From Sedimenticola sp. (GTDB lineage Bacteria; Pseudomonadota; Gammaproteobacteria; Chromatiales; Chromatiaceae), in assembly GCA_027024025.1 (NCBI GenBank), contig JALVTT010000037.1, positions 1 to 49,167 on the forward strand: 49,167 bases of DNA, read 5' to 3'. The translations under genes and the position numbers were made by a program. Each line of letters begins with the position of its first letter. Position 1 is the stretch's first letter. Shown one piece after another: positions 21,739 to 30,249 of this stretch. The notes beneath the pieces are model-generated. The model had not been told where the DNA came from. It made no database searches and saw only the letters and a program-made list of their open reading frames with translations.

Positions 21739-21827
21739 CTGCGGGTTCCGAATGCTGTGTTGGCGTGGGGTCGACTGTGCCAGATCGGGAAGGTCGCGTC
21801 ATCAGTGTCGTGCCGCTGCCGGGTGGG

Positions 21828-21932
21828 GAGGCTGGCGAGGGAATCCGGGAACGTCCGCGGCAGGGATGCCGCGGTCGAGCGTACATGGATGTATTCACAG
21901 CGTTTCCCGGATTCCCTCGCCAGCCTCCGGGT
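21828..21932 (+). repeat. Dispersed structured palindromic repeat, copy C
   Basis: Arms GGCTGGCGAGGGAATCCGGGAAC / GTTTCCCGGATTCCCTCGCCAGCC; inner hairpins CCGCGGCAGGGATGCCGCGG (21855-21874) and TACATGGATGTA (21882-21893). Confidence 0.85.
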
Positions 21933-21976: not shown

Positions 21977-22001
21977 GGAATAATCGGGGTTTTCCCCCGT
22001 C
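21977..22001 (+). promoter_or_regulatory. Putative ECF-type promoter GGAAT-N16-CGTC directly upstream of sigma-factor gene
   Basis: GGAAT 21977-21981; CGTC 21998-22001; ATG at 22011. Confidence 0.55.
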
Positions 22002-22010
22002 AATAGTCAC

Positions 22011-22577
22011 ATGCAAGCACCCAAGCCCCCATCCCTGTTCGCGAAACTGGGCCGCAGCCGGCGGTTGCGGGCCGAGATCTGTAACCAGCGGGAACGCCTG
22101 TACCGTCTGGCCTGGTCCTGGTGCCACAACCAGCATCAGGCCGAGGATTTGGTGCAGGAGACCATGCTGCGCGCCCTGGACAAGCTGGATTCGCTCAGGG
22201 AGGAGGCGCGGCTCGCGGTCTGGCTGACCCGCATCATGGCCAACCTGTTCCGCGACCAGTTCAGAAAACACAGGGAAGAAACCGGCCTGGAACTCGAGCC
22301 GGTCACCGAGGAGACCCCGGAGGACGCCGCTGATCGTTCCCTGCTGGTGCAGCGCACCCGCGAGGCCATCGAGCGGCTGAACGACGATCACCGACAGATC
22401 GTCACCCTGGTGGATCTGGCCGGTTTCAGCTATGCCGATACCGCGCTGATCCTGGATGTGCCGGTGGGCACCGTCATGAGCCGCCTCTCGCGCGCGCGCA
22501 AGCGTCTGCGCGAGCAGCTGGAAAAGGCCCAGGCGACGCCCCATCCGGTCGTGGTCCCGATTAGGAAGCCCTCATGA
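22011..22577 (+). CDS. ECF-family RNA polymerase sigma factor (unit 1)
   Basis: HNQHQAEDLVQETMLRALDKLD; GFSYADTALILDVPVGTVMSRLSRARKRLR. Confidence 0.93.
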   Translation: MQAPKPPSLFAKLGRSRRLRAEICNQRERLYRLAWSWCHNQHQAEDLVQETMLRALDKLDSLREEARLAVWLTRIMANLFRDQFRKHREETGLELEPVTEETPEDAADRSLLVQRTREAIERLNDDHRQIVTLVDLAGFSYADTALILDVPVGTVMSRLSRARKRLREQLEKAQATPHPVVVPIRKPS

Positions 22578-23296
22578 GTACGCAAAAGGATATCGAACTG
22601 AATGCCTATATCGACGGCGAGCTGACGCCCGAGGAACGCCTGGAGGTGCTCGAGGCCCTGCAGGCCGACCCGGCGCTGGCGCGCGAGGCCTGCGAGCTGA
22701 ACAACCTCAAGAGCCAGTTGCAGATGGCCTATGCCAATCCCCCGGGCCTGAGCCGCTGCTCGGCCTCGGGCGGTTCCCGTCCCTGGCTGGCGGTGGCGGC
22801 CAGCCTGCTGATGCTGGTCGCCGGGCTGGCCGGCGGCTGGATCATGGGCGGCGACGAGGCGGTGAAGGACCGCCTGGTGCTGCTCGACCCGGACGGTCGC
22901 GGCCAGGCGCCTGCGGCCGCCGACAGCGACGAGACCCGTATCGTGTTCCATCTCACCACATCGGACCAGTTTGCCGCGGCGGACCTGCTCGACGAGGTCG
23001 AGGACATGCTCAAGGCCTACAAGGCCGAGGGCAAGCCGCTGCGCGTGGAGATCGTGAGCAACGGCGACGGGCTGGATTTTCTGCGCACCCAGCTGAGCAT
23101 GTTCAAGGGCCGCATCCACGAGATGGCCCAGCGTTACCGCAATCTGACCTTCGTGGCCTGCAAGAACACCATCGACCGGGTCAAGGTGAAGCGCGGCATC
23201 GAGGTCAACATCGTGCCGGACGCCGAGATCATCAACTCCGGTGTGGATTACGTGGTCAAGCGCCAGAAAGAAGGCTGGATCTACATCCGTGTCTGA
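22574..23296 (+). CDS. Anti-sigma N-domain / TM / DsrE-like C-domain fusion
   Basis: NAYIDGELTPEERLEVLEALQADPALAREACEL; TM WLAVAASLLMLVAGLAGGWIMGG; C-terminal FHLTTSDQFAAADLL...RYRNLTFVACKNTIDR. Confidence 0.8.
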   Translation: MSTQKDIELNAYIDGELTPEERLEVLEALQADPALAREACELNNLKSQLQMAYANPPGLSRCSASGGSRPWLAVAASLLMLVAGLAGGWIMGGDEAVKDRLVLLDPDGRGQAPAAADSDETRIVFHLTTSDQFAAADLLDEVEDMLKAYKAEGKPLRVEIVSNGDGLDFLRTQLSMFKGRIHEMAQRYRNLTFVACKNTIDRVKVKRGIEVNIVPDAEIINSGVDYVVKRQKEGWIYIRV

Positions 23297-23765
23297 CCGG
23301 CGCTCCCGCCGCTCCGTCCTGCTGGCGCTGTTCCTGCTGGCGCTGGCTCCGGGACTGCGGGCCGTGGGGCAGCCCACTCCGGTGGTCTATGACATCAACT
23401 TCTCCGAGCCGAGGCACCAGGTCAACGCCCTGCACAATCTGCAGAACCAGCTGAGCGAGGCCCACGGCGCGGTGCGCTTGGTGGTGGTGTTGCACGGGGC
23501 CGGCCTGAGCCTGCTGCTGTATCCCGAGGCCATGGATCATACGGTGCGCATGCCGCGCGCCAACTGCGGCGACCAGATGGCGGCGCGTATCGACACCCTG
23601 CGGGACCAGGGTGTGCGCTTCCTGGTGGCCCGCGACAGCGCGCGCCGGCATCACATCGATCCCATGATCGATCTGCACGGGGTGGACCCGGAGGACCTGG
23701 TGCCCAACGGCCTGGCCGAACTGGCCCGGCTGCAGCAGCGGGGTTACCTCTACGTCAAGCCCTGA
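23289..23765 (+). CDS. Exported DsrE-like protein (paralogue of the preceding C-domain)
   Basis: GTG start; N-terminal hydrophobic segment RRSVLLALFLLALAPGLRAVG; RFLVARDSARRHHIDPMIDLHGVDPEDLVPNGLAELARLQQRGYLYVKP. Confidence 0.75.
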   Translation: MSDRRSRRSVLLALFLLALAPGLRAVGQPTPVVYDINFSEPRHQVNALHNLQNQLSEAHGAVRLVVVLHGAGLSLLLYPEAMDHTVRMPRANCGDQMAARIDTLRDQGVRFLVARDSARRHHIDPMIDLHGVDPEDLVPNGLAELARLQQRGYLYVKP

Positions 23766-23787
23766 TTCTTTCGCCTCCAAGGTAGTT

Positions 23788-23813
23788 TGGCCCGCCGTGC
23801 GCGGGCCTTTTTC
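23788..23813 (+). terminator. Rho-independent terminator between the two sigma units
   Basis: GGCCCGC-CGTGC-GCGGGCC-TTTTT. Confidence 0.85.
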
Positions 23814-23817
23814 TGTC

Positions 23818-23848
23818 GGGAATATCGGAAATCTGTAATATTTCCCGA
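23818..23848. promoter_or_regulatory. Inverted repeat (possible operator/promoter region) upstream of second sigma gene
   Basis: CGGGAATAT-cggaaatctgta-ATATTTCCCG. Confidence 0.45.
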
Positions 23849-23869
23849 CCTGCCCCGGTCAGACTGGAC

Positions 23870-24379
23870 ATGGGAAAGCTGAGCAAACATTTCGATTCTC
23901 TGGTGGGGGCGCTCTCCCCGGAGCTGTACCGTTACGCCATGGGGCTGTGTCACAACCCCGATGTGGCCGAGGATCTTGTGCAGGAGACCTTTCTGCGCGC
24001 CTGGCGCTCGCAGCAGACCCTGCGCGACATCAAGACCGCGCGGGCCTGGCTGTACACCATCCTGCGCAACGAGCACGCCCGCCTGTACGAGCGCCAGCGT
24101 CCCGATGTGCGCGACCCGCACACCCTGCCGGATGTCGGCGTGCAGGGCTATGACACCAGCACCGAGGCCTTCACCCTGCGGCGCGCCCTGGACGCCCTGG
24201 ACATGCAGTACCGCGAGCCCCTGCTGCTGCAGGTGATCGGCGGTTTCAGCTGCAAGGAGATCGGCGAGATGCTGTCGCTCAAACCCAATACCGTACTGAC
24301 CCGCTTGTTCCGCGCGCGCAAGATGCTGCGCGCCACGCTCGAGCCGGAGGTTCAGGAGAAGCATCATGAACTGTCTTGA
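23870..24379 (+). CDS. ECF-family RNA polymerase sigma factor (unit 2)
   Basis: NPDVAEDLVQETFLRAWRS; GFSCKEIGEMLSLKPNTVLTRLFRARKMLR. Confidence 0.93.
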   Translation: MGKLSKHFDSLVGALSPELYRYAMGLCHNPDVAEDLVQETFLRAWRSQQTLRDIKTARAWLYTILRNEHARLYERQRPDVRDPHTLPDVGVQGYDTSTEAFTLRRALDALDMQYREPLLLQVIGGFSCKEIGEMLSLKPNTVLTRLFRARKMLRATLEPEVQEKHHELS

Positions 24380-25139
24380 ATTTCGCCGTCAGCTGCTGCA
24401 GGACCCGCATCAAACGGCACCGGAACTGCTCGAACATGAAGCGAACTGCCACGATTGTGAGCGATATTCGCGCAAGATCCGGGCTCAGGAGGCGGCCCTG
24501 CGGAGTCTGCTCAACGAGGTGAGCCCGCCGCCCGGACTGGCCGACCGCATTCGCCTGGGGGTGCGTCTGGAGCGGCGCGCCAGCACCGGTCGCCGGATCT
24601 GGTTCGCGGCCGCGGCCAGCGTCCTGCTGGCGGTCACCGTGAGCATGAGTTCGCTGTTCACCCAGCACTACGAGCGCGAGCACATGGCCCTGGCGCAAAA
24701 CGTGATCTATCACATCGAGGACGAGGCGCGCCATCTGCACGACCCGGGCCCGGCCTCGCCGCAGCGGGTGCATGCGGTGCTGGCGCGTTTCGGGGCCGAA
24801 CTCGACGGCAGCATCGGCCGCATCACCTTCGCCGCGGAGTGCGTGATGCGCCACCGTACCGGCATCCACCTGATCCTGGCCGGTCGCCAGGGGCCGGTGA
24901 CCGTGTTCTTCATGCCCGGCGAGCAGACCGCGCGGGTGATCCCGGTCGACTCCGATCGCTTTCATGGCGAGATCGTGCCCACCCGCTGGGGCAGCCTGGC
25001 CGTGATCGGCGAGCAGGGCGAGCCCATCGAGCCCATCGTGGCCCGGGTCAACCGGGTGGTGCGCTGGCACGCGGATTCGGCGGGCCTGGCCCTGCGCGGG
25101 CCGGGATCGGCGCCGCGGGTGGCCCAGGTCGAGCTGTAG
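24366..25139 (+). CDS. Anti-sigma factor, zinc-binding HX3CX2C, DUF3379-like
   Basis: LLEHEANCHDCERY (HEANCHDC); TM IWFAAAASVLLAVTVSMSSLF; 4-bp-class overlap with sigma gene. Confidence 0.85.
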   Translation: MNCLEFRRQLLQDPHQTAPELLEHEANCHDCERYSRKIRAQEAALRSLLNEVSPPPGLADRIRLGVRLERRASTGRRIWFAAAASVLLAVTVSMSSLFTQHYEREHMALAQNVIYHIEDEARHLHDPGPASPQRVHAVLARFGAELDGSIGRITFAAECVMRHRTGIHLILAGRQGPVTVFFMPGEQTARVIPVDSDRFHGEIVPTRWGSLAVIGEQGEPIEPIVARVNRVVRWHADSAGLALRGPGSAPRVAQVEL

Positions 25140-26079: not shown

Positions 26080-26225
26080 TGGACTACCTTATACTGTTCA
26101 AATCGTGTGTCGAGATGTTAACTTATGTGTCCTGGTTCCGCATGTCCGCGGACAGAGAGAAGTGCCTGCAGACAAAGGCACCGCAGATCCCTGTACCATT
26201 TAAAAGACTAAAGGAAATGGAGATA

Positions 26226-26552
26226 ATGATGAAGATCACGCTCAAGAAGCTACTGCTTTCCACCGTGGCCGTGTCCGTATTCGGCCTGACCGGCTCGGCG
26301 TTGGCCGCCACCAAGGCCGATTACGAGAAGGCCGTCAGCGCCGCCCAGGCCGCCATTAAACAGGCCGCCGCCATGGACAATGAATGGCGCGACAGCGGCA
26401 AGTTGCTGAAGAAGGCCGCCGAGGCCGCCAAGGCCGGCGACTATGACAAGGCGCTGAAGCTTGCCAAGGCCGCCGAGTTCCAGGGCAAGATGGCCCAGGC
26501 ACAGGCCAAGGCCAATGCCAACGCGGGCAATCCGGACTATCTGTACAAGTAA
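26226..26552 (+). CDS. SoxXA-binding protein (SoxK)-like small periplasmic protein
   Basis: Signal peptide; ADYEKAVSAAQAAIKQAAAMDNEWRDSGKLLKKAAEAAKAGDYDKALKLAKAAEFQGKMAQAQ..PDYLYK. Confidence 0.75.
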   Translation: MMKITLKKLLLSTVAVSVFGLTGSALAATKADYEKAVSAAQAAIKQAAAMDNEWRDSGKLLKKAAEAAKAGDYDKALKLAKAAEFQGKMAQAQAKANANAGNPDYLYK

Positions 26553-28519: not shown

Positions 28520-28930
28520 ATGAAGACAGGGAAATGGATGCTGCTGTGTGTGCCGCTGATGCTTTCGCTATCGGTTCGGGCGGCAGTGTATCGCTGTCCG
28601 GGCGCTCAGGGCGTGCAGTTTCAGGACTGGCCCTGTGGCGGGGCGCCGGTGCTGCGGGGCGGGGCCGCCGATGCGGCGGGCACGGGGCTGCGCGCCAGCG
28701 AGCGGGCCTGGCTGCGTCAGCGCGAGCGGGCACGGGCGCGTCATCACAGGACGGTTCAGAAGGAACGGCCGCAGGCGGCGGATGCCCGGGCGCGGCGCTG
28801 CTGGTCGCGCCGCCGGCGTCTGGCGCGGGTGCGGGACGCGCTGCGCCGGGGCTATCGCCCGGCCCGCGGCGAGCGTCTGCGCCGCCAGCGGCGCGAGCTG
28901 GAGGACTATCTGTCGCGCTTCTGCGACTGA
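28520..28930 (+). CDS. Small exported Arg-rich protein, DUF4124-like N-terminus
   Basis: MKTGKWMLLCVPLMLSLSVRAAVYRCPGAQGVQFQDWPCG. Confidence 0.7.
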   Translation: MKTGKWMLLCVPLMLSLSVRAAVYRCPGAQGVQFQDWPCGGAPVLRGGAADAAGTGLRASERAWLRQRERARARHHRTVQKERPQAADARARRCWSRRRRLARVRDALRRGYRPARGERLRRQRRELEDYLSRFCD

Positions 28931-29970
28931 GGCCCGGGCTCGTCGAGCAGCAGCTTGCGGGTACGCGCGCCCCAACGCAGGAAGTTGGGCTCTTCCAGAT
29001 AGCCCTTGCTCAGGACATAGCGCAGCACATTGCGCAGGCGCACGAACTGCACCACCGAATCGACGCGGATGATCTCGCGCCCCTGCTCGTCGTAGAAGAT
29101 CAGGGTGGGGGCGTAGAACAGGCCCAGCTCACGGGCCCATTCGCGCGCGGTGGTGGACTCGCCCTGCGGCGTGACCACCGGGGTGTCGGCGTGCATGTCC
29201 AGCTGCACGATCTCGAAGCGGCTCAGCGGTTCCCGCACCACCTTGCGTTGCAGCGGGCCGGTGTGCAGCACATCGCAGGCATGGCATTCCCCCTGCTCGA
29301 AGATCACCAGCAGCGGCATGTCGGCCGGGGCATGGGTGCGGTCCAGCTGATAGGGCGGCCGTTCGAACAGCGGATCCTCGATCAGGTCGCCGGGCTCGAA
29401 GTGCAGGCTCTTGTCTCCGCGCGCCAGATAGGAGGCGAAGGTCTCCTTCTTGTAATGGCCGTCGGCCACGTACTCCAGCGCGGCCCGGTGCTGGTAGGGC
29501 GGATAGTAGCCGCGCAGGCGCAGGGCGATGCGCCCGTCCGCGTCGTAGAACACCAGCGAGGGGGTGAAGTTGGTGTTCAGGGCCACCGCGTAGTCGCGCT
29601 CGGTGGTGGTGCGACCGTCCGGGGTGGTGACCTCCTCCGGGCTCCAGATGTCGATCGGGATCACGTCGAAGTGGCGGCGCGTGTATTCCACGATGTCGTC
29701 CTTGTGGAAGTTCACGTCCATGAGCTTCTTGCAGTAGGGGCAGCGTTGCTGGCCGAAATACACGATGATGCCCTTCTTGCCGGCATCCACCGCCTCCTTC
29801 AGGTCATCGTCCAGCGCCAGGAAGCTCTCCTTGAACCAGTCGGGATAGGTGATGATGTTCTGCAGCGGGGTGTCGTCGAAATCGAAGCTGTCCCCGTCGC
29901 TGCCGCTCGCGGCGGCCAGGGCACCGGCGCAGGCGATCAGCAGAAGGGTAGTGAGGATTTTTTTGGCCAT
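28906..29970 (-). CDS. Exported tandem thioredoxin-fold protein (SoxW-like)
   Basis: Signal peptide; KGIIVYFGQQRCPYCKKLMDVNFH; second domain LLVIFEQGECHACDVLH. Confidence 0.85.
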   Translation of the reverse strand: MAKKILTTLLLIACAGALAAASGSDGDSFDFDDTPLQNIITYPDWFKESFLALDDDLKEAVDAGKKGIIVYFGQQRCPYCKKLMDVNFHKDDIVEYTRRHFDVIPIDIWSPEEVTTPDGRTTTERDYAVALNTNFTPSLVFYDADGRIALRLRGYYPPYQHRAALEYVADGHYKKETFASYLARGDKSLHFEPGDLIEDPLFERPPYQLDRTHAPADMPLLVIFEQGECHACDVLHTGPLQRKVVREPLSRFEIVQLDMHADTPVVTPQGESTTAREWARELGLFYAPTLIFYDEQGREIIRVDSVVQFVRLRNVLRYVLSKGYLEEPNFLRWGARTRKLLLDEPGPQSQKRDR

Positions 29971-30249
29971 CGGCGGGTATTGCAAGGGGGGGATATCCTT
30001 CGGTTTCGGGAACGGTTGTCGAGGCCGTAGAGCCGGTCGACGCTTTCGTTGCCTGAGGGCAGCAGTATAGGGTTCATGCCCACGGCTATCCACACCGGTA
30101 TGGCGCGCCTGAATCTGCTTGTCGATGCCTCATTATTAACCAATAGTACCGATGTGTTTAATAAGTTGACCGTCTGTTCATCGTTGCTTTAATAGCGGGG
30201 TCTGCATTTCCCCGCCTATGGGGAAGGCCTGCGAATCCAGGGGGTCTGC

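Follow-up and report, generated by a model that had tools for sequence, protein, structure and literature searches.

The 49,167-nucleotide stretch of DNA analysed here (the window) carries on its forward strand all five open reading frames listed by the first-pass annotation, arranged as two neighbouring units each headed by a sigma factor gene. The first of these genes, sigma 1 (22011..22577), encodes a protein of 188 residues with Pfam matches to Sigma70_r2 (4e-15) and r4_2 (4e-16), both above cut-off, and a TIGR02937 score of 93.9 bits against a cut-off of 42.9. Its length of fewer than 200 residues and its confinement to sigma regions 2 and 4 mark sigma 1 as a member of the ECF (group IV) class. 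A predicted autoregulatory ECF promoter, GGAATA-N15-CGTC, lies just upstream on the same strand (21977..22001; 22.9 bits by position weight matrix, PWM). The same upstream region contains a 25-nt inverted repeat that is single-copy in the genome. Sigma 1 shares four base pairs (ATGA) with the next gene (22574..23296, forward strand), which encodes a 240-residue protein combining an anti-sigma-like N-terminus, a transmembrane (TM) segment and a C-terminal DsrE-like domain, an assignment based on a zf-HC2 match, the fold of the C-domain and conservation. Next on the same strand is the gene of an exported DsrE partner of 158 residues (23289..23765, GTG start at 23289), which has a Pfam DsrE match (2.9e-8) and a signal-peptide-like N-terminus. 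A terminator-like hairpin followed by five T residues (23789..23807, forward strand) closes the sigma 1 operon, where the first-pass annotation had also seen a terminator. Beyond it, and again on the forward strand, lie sigma 2 (23870..24379) and the gene of its DUF3379 anti-sigma (24366..25139).

The cytoplasmic part of the fusion (residues 1-53; 22574..22732, forward strand) is predicted to form three helices, which appear at low confidence in an AlphaFold2 (AF2) model built from two sequences only and poor in its N-terminal part. It contains an invariant Asp14, and a Cys40 that is found in 75% of 53 orthologs. Residues 9-30 match zf-HC2 (8.9e-5; 22.9 bits against a cut-off of 22.2), as do 6 of 49 orthologs. 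The HX3CX2C zinc motif is absent from this region, whose sole cysteine is Cys40, which places it outside the ZAS class. A single TM segment follows at about residues 72-92 (22787..22849, forward strand; hydropathy maximum of 2.1 at residue 72). Since hydropathy places such a segment in 50 of the 53 orthologs, the fusion is of the class I membrane anti-sigma type, with one TM segment. Judging from the 4-bp gene overlap and the pairing of the two genes, the fusion probably binds and inhibits its cognate sigma factor. It is from this anti-sigma role that the orientation is deduced, with the C-domain presumably extracytoplasmic. We also considered a cytoplasmic location for the DsrE domain; the hydropathy profile fits the periplasmic one.

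The DsrE-like domain and Cys196

The putative periplasmic domain spans residues 121-240 (22934..23293, forward strand). Taken alone it gives no match in Pfam, and PF02635 is reached at an E-value of 0.001 by 8 of 49 fusion orthologs but not by the protein of the window. In a phmmer search it matched MTH1491 with an E-value of 1.1e-10, and ST0148 was also matched. A profile built from the 49 orthologs gave 6.1e-21 for MTH1491 (PDB 1l1s) and 4.4e-11 for ST0148 (2pd2). In the AF2 model, residues 121-240 have pLDDT values of mostly about 80, and a Foldseek search with this model returned ST0148 (2pd2) as the best PDB match, with a TM-score of 0.81 by target length, further top matches being DsrE sulfurtransferase and DsrEFH structures (3pnx, 2hy5). 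By profile matching and by predicted structure, the C-domain thus has a DsrE/DsrF-like fold. The first-pass annotation, whose proposal hinged on such a fold and which had described an anti-sigma-TM-DsrE fusion with an exported DsrE partner, is borne out by these domain, fold and topology searches.

In the alignment of 49 fusion sequences, Asp14, Cys196, Trp235 and Tyr237 are invariant. Cys196 (codon 23159..23161, forward strand) is present in 100% of the 53 orthologs as well as of the 49 aligned ones. In an hhalign comparison with the DsrEFH-type proteins of the same genome it falls on the DsrE cysteine, but with negligible probability; its correspondence to the canonical active-site position of DsrE/TusD is statistically not significant.

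Distribution of the sigma/fusion pair

Conservation was surveyed in 38 relatives and then in 369 genomes of the class. The full-length fusion occurs in 66 of the 369, from about 40 family-level groups of Gammaproteobacteria (the list of fusion-bearing genomes was compiled by hand from the match table). Of the pairs, 53 were retained; in each the fusion gene immediately follows a co-oriented sigma gene, and in 36 of them the two genes overlap by 4 bp, as they do in the window. The recurrence of the pair in so many family-level groups, together with this shared overlap, argues against chance. In a sample of the phylum, full-length matches were confined to the class of the window, those in other classes being without the anti-sigma part. 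A 420-residue frame at one locus (L091) resembled an anti-sigma-DsrE-DsrE fusion, a Rosetta-stone case, and was discarded because its translation is an out-of-frame 5' extension.

Genes for exported DsrE proteins adjoin the pair in 39 of the 53 cases, in tandem in 20 and divergently in 19, so that the co-conservation of sigma, fusion and partner on which the earlier proposal depended is supported. A hydrophobic N-terminus is present in 37 of these 39 partners. A cysteine is likewise present in 37 of the 39; the window's partner has an alanine there, being one of the two tandem partners (of 20) in which the residue is lost. Consequently, a thiol-carrier function at this site is excluded for the window's partner. 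Beyond the divergent DsrE genes there is usually a porin-like gene, a call that rests on weak matches to outer-membrane barrels and on the look of the sequence.

The pair is also associated with genes for Sox sulfur oxidation. All but one of the 66 fusion-bearing genomes (65) have SoxB, compared with 85 of the remaining 303 (Fisher 5e-29, an optimistic value since species are not independent samples). Two genomes have the pair within a sox operon. In L110 (genome G177) a porin and a DsrE gene are divergent from sigma-fusion-soxX-Y-Z-A-B, and L413 (genome G639) reads soxY-soxZ-sigma-fusion-soxY-soxZ-soxA, with NCBIfam equivalog models scoring above cut-off for SoxX, Y, Z, A and B in the former and for SoxY, Z and A in the latter. 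In the window's own genome, family models identify soxX followed by soxY, soxZ and soxA. The link to sulfur that the first-pass annotation had drawn is thereby strengthened, with Sox sulfur oxidation as the predicted regulon.

Promoter motif and predicted regulon

A common element, GGAATA-N15/16-CGTC, is found upstream of the sigma genes, in most cases with T as the next base. From 37 such sites, all of them sigma promoters and the window's site among them, we built a PWM. The motif was found upstream of 46 of 65 sigma genes, a set that includes seven sigma-2-type genes, none of which reached the threshold. Most sigma/fusion pairs are thus preceded, by sequence, by a predicted autoregulated promoter of the GGAA...CGT type.

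We searched the genomes of eight congeners for the exact motif with a spacer of 14-16 nt and counted 133 occurrences; as controls, the reversed pattern gave 37 and spacers of 19-21 gave 67. Predicted unlinked targets within the genus are soxB (8/8), soxX at the head of soxXYZA (6/8) and a YeeE/SoxT-like transporter (6/8), followed by the SoxAX-binding protein (5/8) and an exported DsrE whose cysteine is of the CANT type (6/8, plus one near-match). The own-genome copy of this DsrE gene has a motif with one mismatch (16.2 bits). Family models confirmed SoxX, SoxB and the Sulf_transp transporter, the SoxAX-binding protein scoring below cut-off (72.5 against 95 bits). In some congeners the motif also precedes genes for exported DUF302 and HbpS-like proteins. 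As for GGAATAGCCGGTGCCGAAGTCGTC, repeated exactly several times in the own genome, it was treated as chance; similar matches examined in two other genomes are antisense to long coding frames.

Outside the genus, we applied the PWM to the regions upstream of soxB and soxX with a threshold of 12 bits, at which shuffled-sequence controls gave 1-4%. Matches upstream of soxB were found in 24 of 55 fusion-bearing genomes and in none of 29 fusion-free ones (p 6e-6, phylogenetically uncorrected; shuffled sequences 1.5-4%). For soxX, the counts were 8 of 29 against 1 of 29 (p 0.025, likewise uncorrected for phylogeny). No recognisable motif was found upstream of soxB in 31 of the 55, or of soxX in 21 of the 29, fusion-bearing genomes outside the genus. 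Where a DsrE gene is divergent from the pair, 16 of 19 intergenic regions have a motif facing the DsrE gene, against 0.45 expected, a comparison made without phylogenetic correction. Whole-genome motif lists for two distant genomes (G104 and G283) contain sigma, soxB and a few exported proteins, too sparse a yield for a regulon to be drawn from them. Together, the motifs suggest that the regulon of sigma 1 is very probably Sox sulfur oxidation.

A putative sulfur-responsive switch

The best explanation of the whole, and one that we consider probable, is that sigma 1 switches on sulfur oxidation under the control of a periplasmic DsrE sensor. Its parts, topology, conservation, promoter and regulon are supported by comparative sequence analysis. 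The sequestration and release of sigma 1 are presumed from knowledge of the family, sequestration by a membrane anti-sigma and release upon a periplasmic signal being the established mode for the class (summarised in PMC3445524). Without a signal, the cytoplasmic helices of the fusion would tether sigma 1 to the inner membrane. On the periplasmic side, the DsrE domain would sense an oxidized species or one carrying sulfane sulfur (polysulfide, protein persulfide or tetrathionate), Cys196 being modified directly or via the exported DsrE partner as a sulfur carrier, and the change would pass through the single TM segment to free sigma 1, either directly or by proteolysis. Freed sigma 1 would transcribe from GGAATA-N15/16-CGTC promoters, including that of its own operon, with soxXYZA, soxB and the genes for the SoxAX-binding protein, the YeeE/SoxT-like transporter and exported DsrE proteins as predicted targets. 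In many relatives, it would also drive an operon encoding a DsrE protein and an outer-membrane porin. Positive autoregulation combined with induction of exported DsrE proteins suggests feedback.

The identity of the signal, the chemistry at Cys196 and the role of the partner are what we infer. Cys196 never varies, belongs to a sulfur-carrier fold and occurs in genomes whose sulfur oxidation takes place in the periplasm; a sulfur-modified cysteine therefore appears the likeliest trigger, and we give covalent sensing at this residue about an even chance. There is chemical precedent, which is not proof, in DsrE3A, a protein that takes up thiosulfate from tetrathionate on its cysteines (PMC4175335). 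Because DsrE3A reacted with tetrathionate but not with polysulfide (PMC4175335), the ligand of the fusion cannot be assumed. Alternatively, the DsrE domain may be a docking platform, sigma 1 being freed by binding of an exported DsrE or of a sulfur-loaded SoxYZ-type carrier, as in partner-controlled anti-sigmas, rather than by covalent modification of Cys196. The tight linkage of the partner genes, the hetero-complexes formed among DsrE-family proteins (e.g., DsrE3A-TusA; PMC4175335) and the retention in the window of a partner without its cysteine are all consistent with docking, which we nonetheless hold to be rather unlikely, since pure docking does not need the cysteine that is invariant in 53 of 53 fusions.

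A sensor of periplasmic redox or sulfur stress (sulfide, polysulfide or sulfite toxicity) would induce sox for detoxification and not for energy metabolism. There is a parallel in ECF26, where RpoE1/RpoE4 of Sinorhizobium answer sulfite and induce sulfite oxidase (PMC3511301), and the own genome has an SQR-like gene behind a DUF302 gene that carries the motif. However, the predicted core regulon consists of the thiosulfate-oxidizing Sox machinery and sulfur import, not of sulfite oxidases, and we regard this reading as quite improbable. It is more doubtful still that GGAATA-N15/16-CGTC is read by another common ECF sigma factor, the fusion pair being merely one of its targets. ECF motifs do resemble one another, and in several genomes two or more sigma/fusion pairs share this motif (L102, L104). 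Against this reading, most sigma/fusion pairs have the motif upstream, as ECF autoregulation predicts, and its presence before soxB in fusion-bearing but not in fusion-free genomes is what recognition by the fusion's own sigma would produce.

Systems of this type are known, since ECF factors control sox in Arcobacter (PMC3445524) and sulfite oxidation in Sinorhizobium (PMC3511301). Like sigma 1 and its fusion, ECF26 of S. meliloti (RpoE1/RpoE4) is an autoregulated ECF sigma with a co-transcribed anti-sigma, in which a sulfur compound turns on a sulfur-oxidation gene set, but its description gives COG5662 anti-sigmas, sulfite oxidase SorT as target and no DsrE domain (PMC3511301). Mutants in ECF sigma-2/sigma-7 of Arcobacter butzleri change expression of the sox cluster; this organism, however, belongs to the Campylobacterota, and the excerpted text of the report makes no mention of DsrE (PMC3445524). 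The ArsR-type repressors SoxR and sHdrR also control sox genes and sense sulfane sulfur through cysteines (PMC10451225, PMC12423496), and a YeeE-like SoxT, SoxT1B, is tied to these systems (PMC11582611), but they are cytoplasmic DNA-binding proteins fed by a transporter, with no sigma factor or periplasmic sensor domain. TspS/TspR of F. caldus, as described in PMC12194929, exerts sensory control of the sox cluster, as a two-component system with sigma54 that has neither an ECF sigma nor a DsrE domain. Finally, the DsrE/DsrEFH and DsrE3A-TusA carriers share the DsrE fold, reactive cysteines and transfer of sulfur or thiosulfate, but are cytoplasmic, have no anti-sigma fusion and are not described as transcriptional sensors (PMC3397948, PMC4175335).

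A full-text literature search returned no paper with this architecture; the 2021 ECF classification, which fell outside its scope, may describe one. Within what this search covered, the novel elements are the DsrE sensor, the gammaproteobacterial regulon and the breadth of the system. It seems to be a previously undescribed means by which many sulfur-oxidizing Gammaproteobacteria sense extracytoplasmic sulfur and turn on sulfur-oxidation genes. The literature still describes the sensing of sulfur compounds in sulfur-oxidizing bacteria as poorly known (PMC10451225, PMC11582611), and the sox-controlling sensors of sulfane sulfur that we found there are cytoplasmic repressors of Alphaproteobacteria. 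If true, our reading would place in Gammaproteobacteria a periplasm-facing sensor, turned towards the compartment in which Sox operates, and would give a role to exported DsrE and to the porin-like protein encoded with it. The system comes with identified genes, a promoter motif and a predicted regulon, and a single cysteine can be targeted by mutation. A broader proposal, which we put forward tentatively and rate slightly short of even, is that these fusions are a widespread, undescribed class of transmembrane anti-sigmas in which a periplasmic DsrE domain, through its cysteine, senses extracytoplasmic sulfane sulfur covalently. Dedicated exported DsrE carriers and a porin would supply this sensor, and the class would be a main Sox switch of Gammaproteobacteria.

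The neighbouring sigma 2, also of ECF type, belongs to the PRK12517 subfamily (183.5 bits), with Sigma70_r2/r4 matches well above cut-offs, and its anti-sigma is a DUF3379 protein (PF11859, 2.6e-56) in which HEANCHDC confirms the HX3CX2C motif reported earlier. A cascade or joint response of the two sigma factors, as first proposed, is highly improbable: synteny within the genus and a SoxAX-binding-protein paralog beyond the sigma 2 unit (26127-26552) speak for it, but the terminator-like hairpin separates the units, the sigma 1 motif was found neither before sigma 2 (2.7 bits against 22.9 for sigma 1) nor before 26127, and the subfamily and anti-sigma type differ. Sigma 2 adjoins the fusion only within the window's genus, where two congeners (L039, L043) have genes inserted between the units. 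The tandem arrangement therefore stands as adjacency, with sigma 2 a separate system.

Sequence upstream of sigma 1

At window positions 21977-22011, the -10 CGTC element of the predicted GGAATA-N15/16-CGTC promoter lies ~10 nt upstream of the start codon of sigma 1, the first ECF sigma gene, and the spacing is similar in other genomes of the genus. This short distance suggests that the sigma 1 mRNA is nearly leaderless. Also upstream of sigma 1 is a perfect inverted repeat with 25-nt arms separated by 52 nt (21827-21928), which is present in one copy in the genome.

Genes beyond the sigma-2 unit

Beyond the neighboring sigma-2 unit lies a SoxAX-binding-protein-like gene (26127-26552), which scores 67.6 bits, under the 95-bit cut-off of the family model, and whose synteny is retained within the genus. 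Because no sigma-1 motif was found upstream of it, this gene may be controlled by a regulator other than sigma 1. The product of 28906-30093 (minus strand) is exported, contains CPYC and CHAC stretches like those of thioredoxins, and shows weak similarity to TsoB (4.6e-9); a protein resembling it, also exported, is encoded after a sigma-1 motif in another genome (G104, locus L333).

Arrangements at other loci

Among loci L161, L162, and L314:660-2733, the sigma-1 motif precedes a gene for an exported DUF302 protein, which is followed by an SQR-like gene; an exported HbpS-like gene at L162 likewise bears the motif. Two loci (L102 and L104) carry two tandem pairs of a sigma gene and an anti-sigma-TM-DsrE fusion gene. 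Each pair has its own GGAATA promoter, which suggests paralogous switches with a common promoter specificity. In genome G639 (L413), a soxYZ copy sits on either side of the sigma/fusion pair, two in all, which looks like a tandem duplication with the regulator between the copies.
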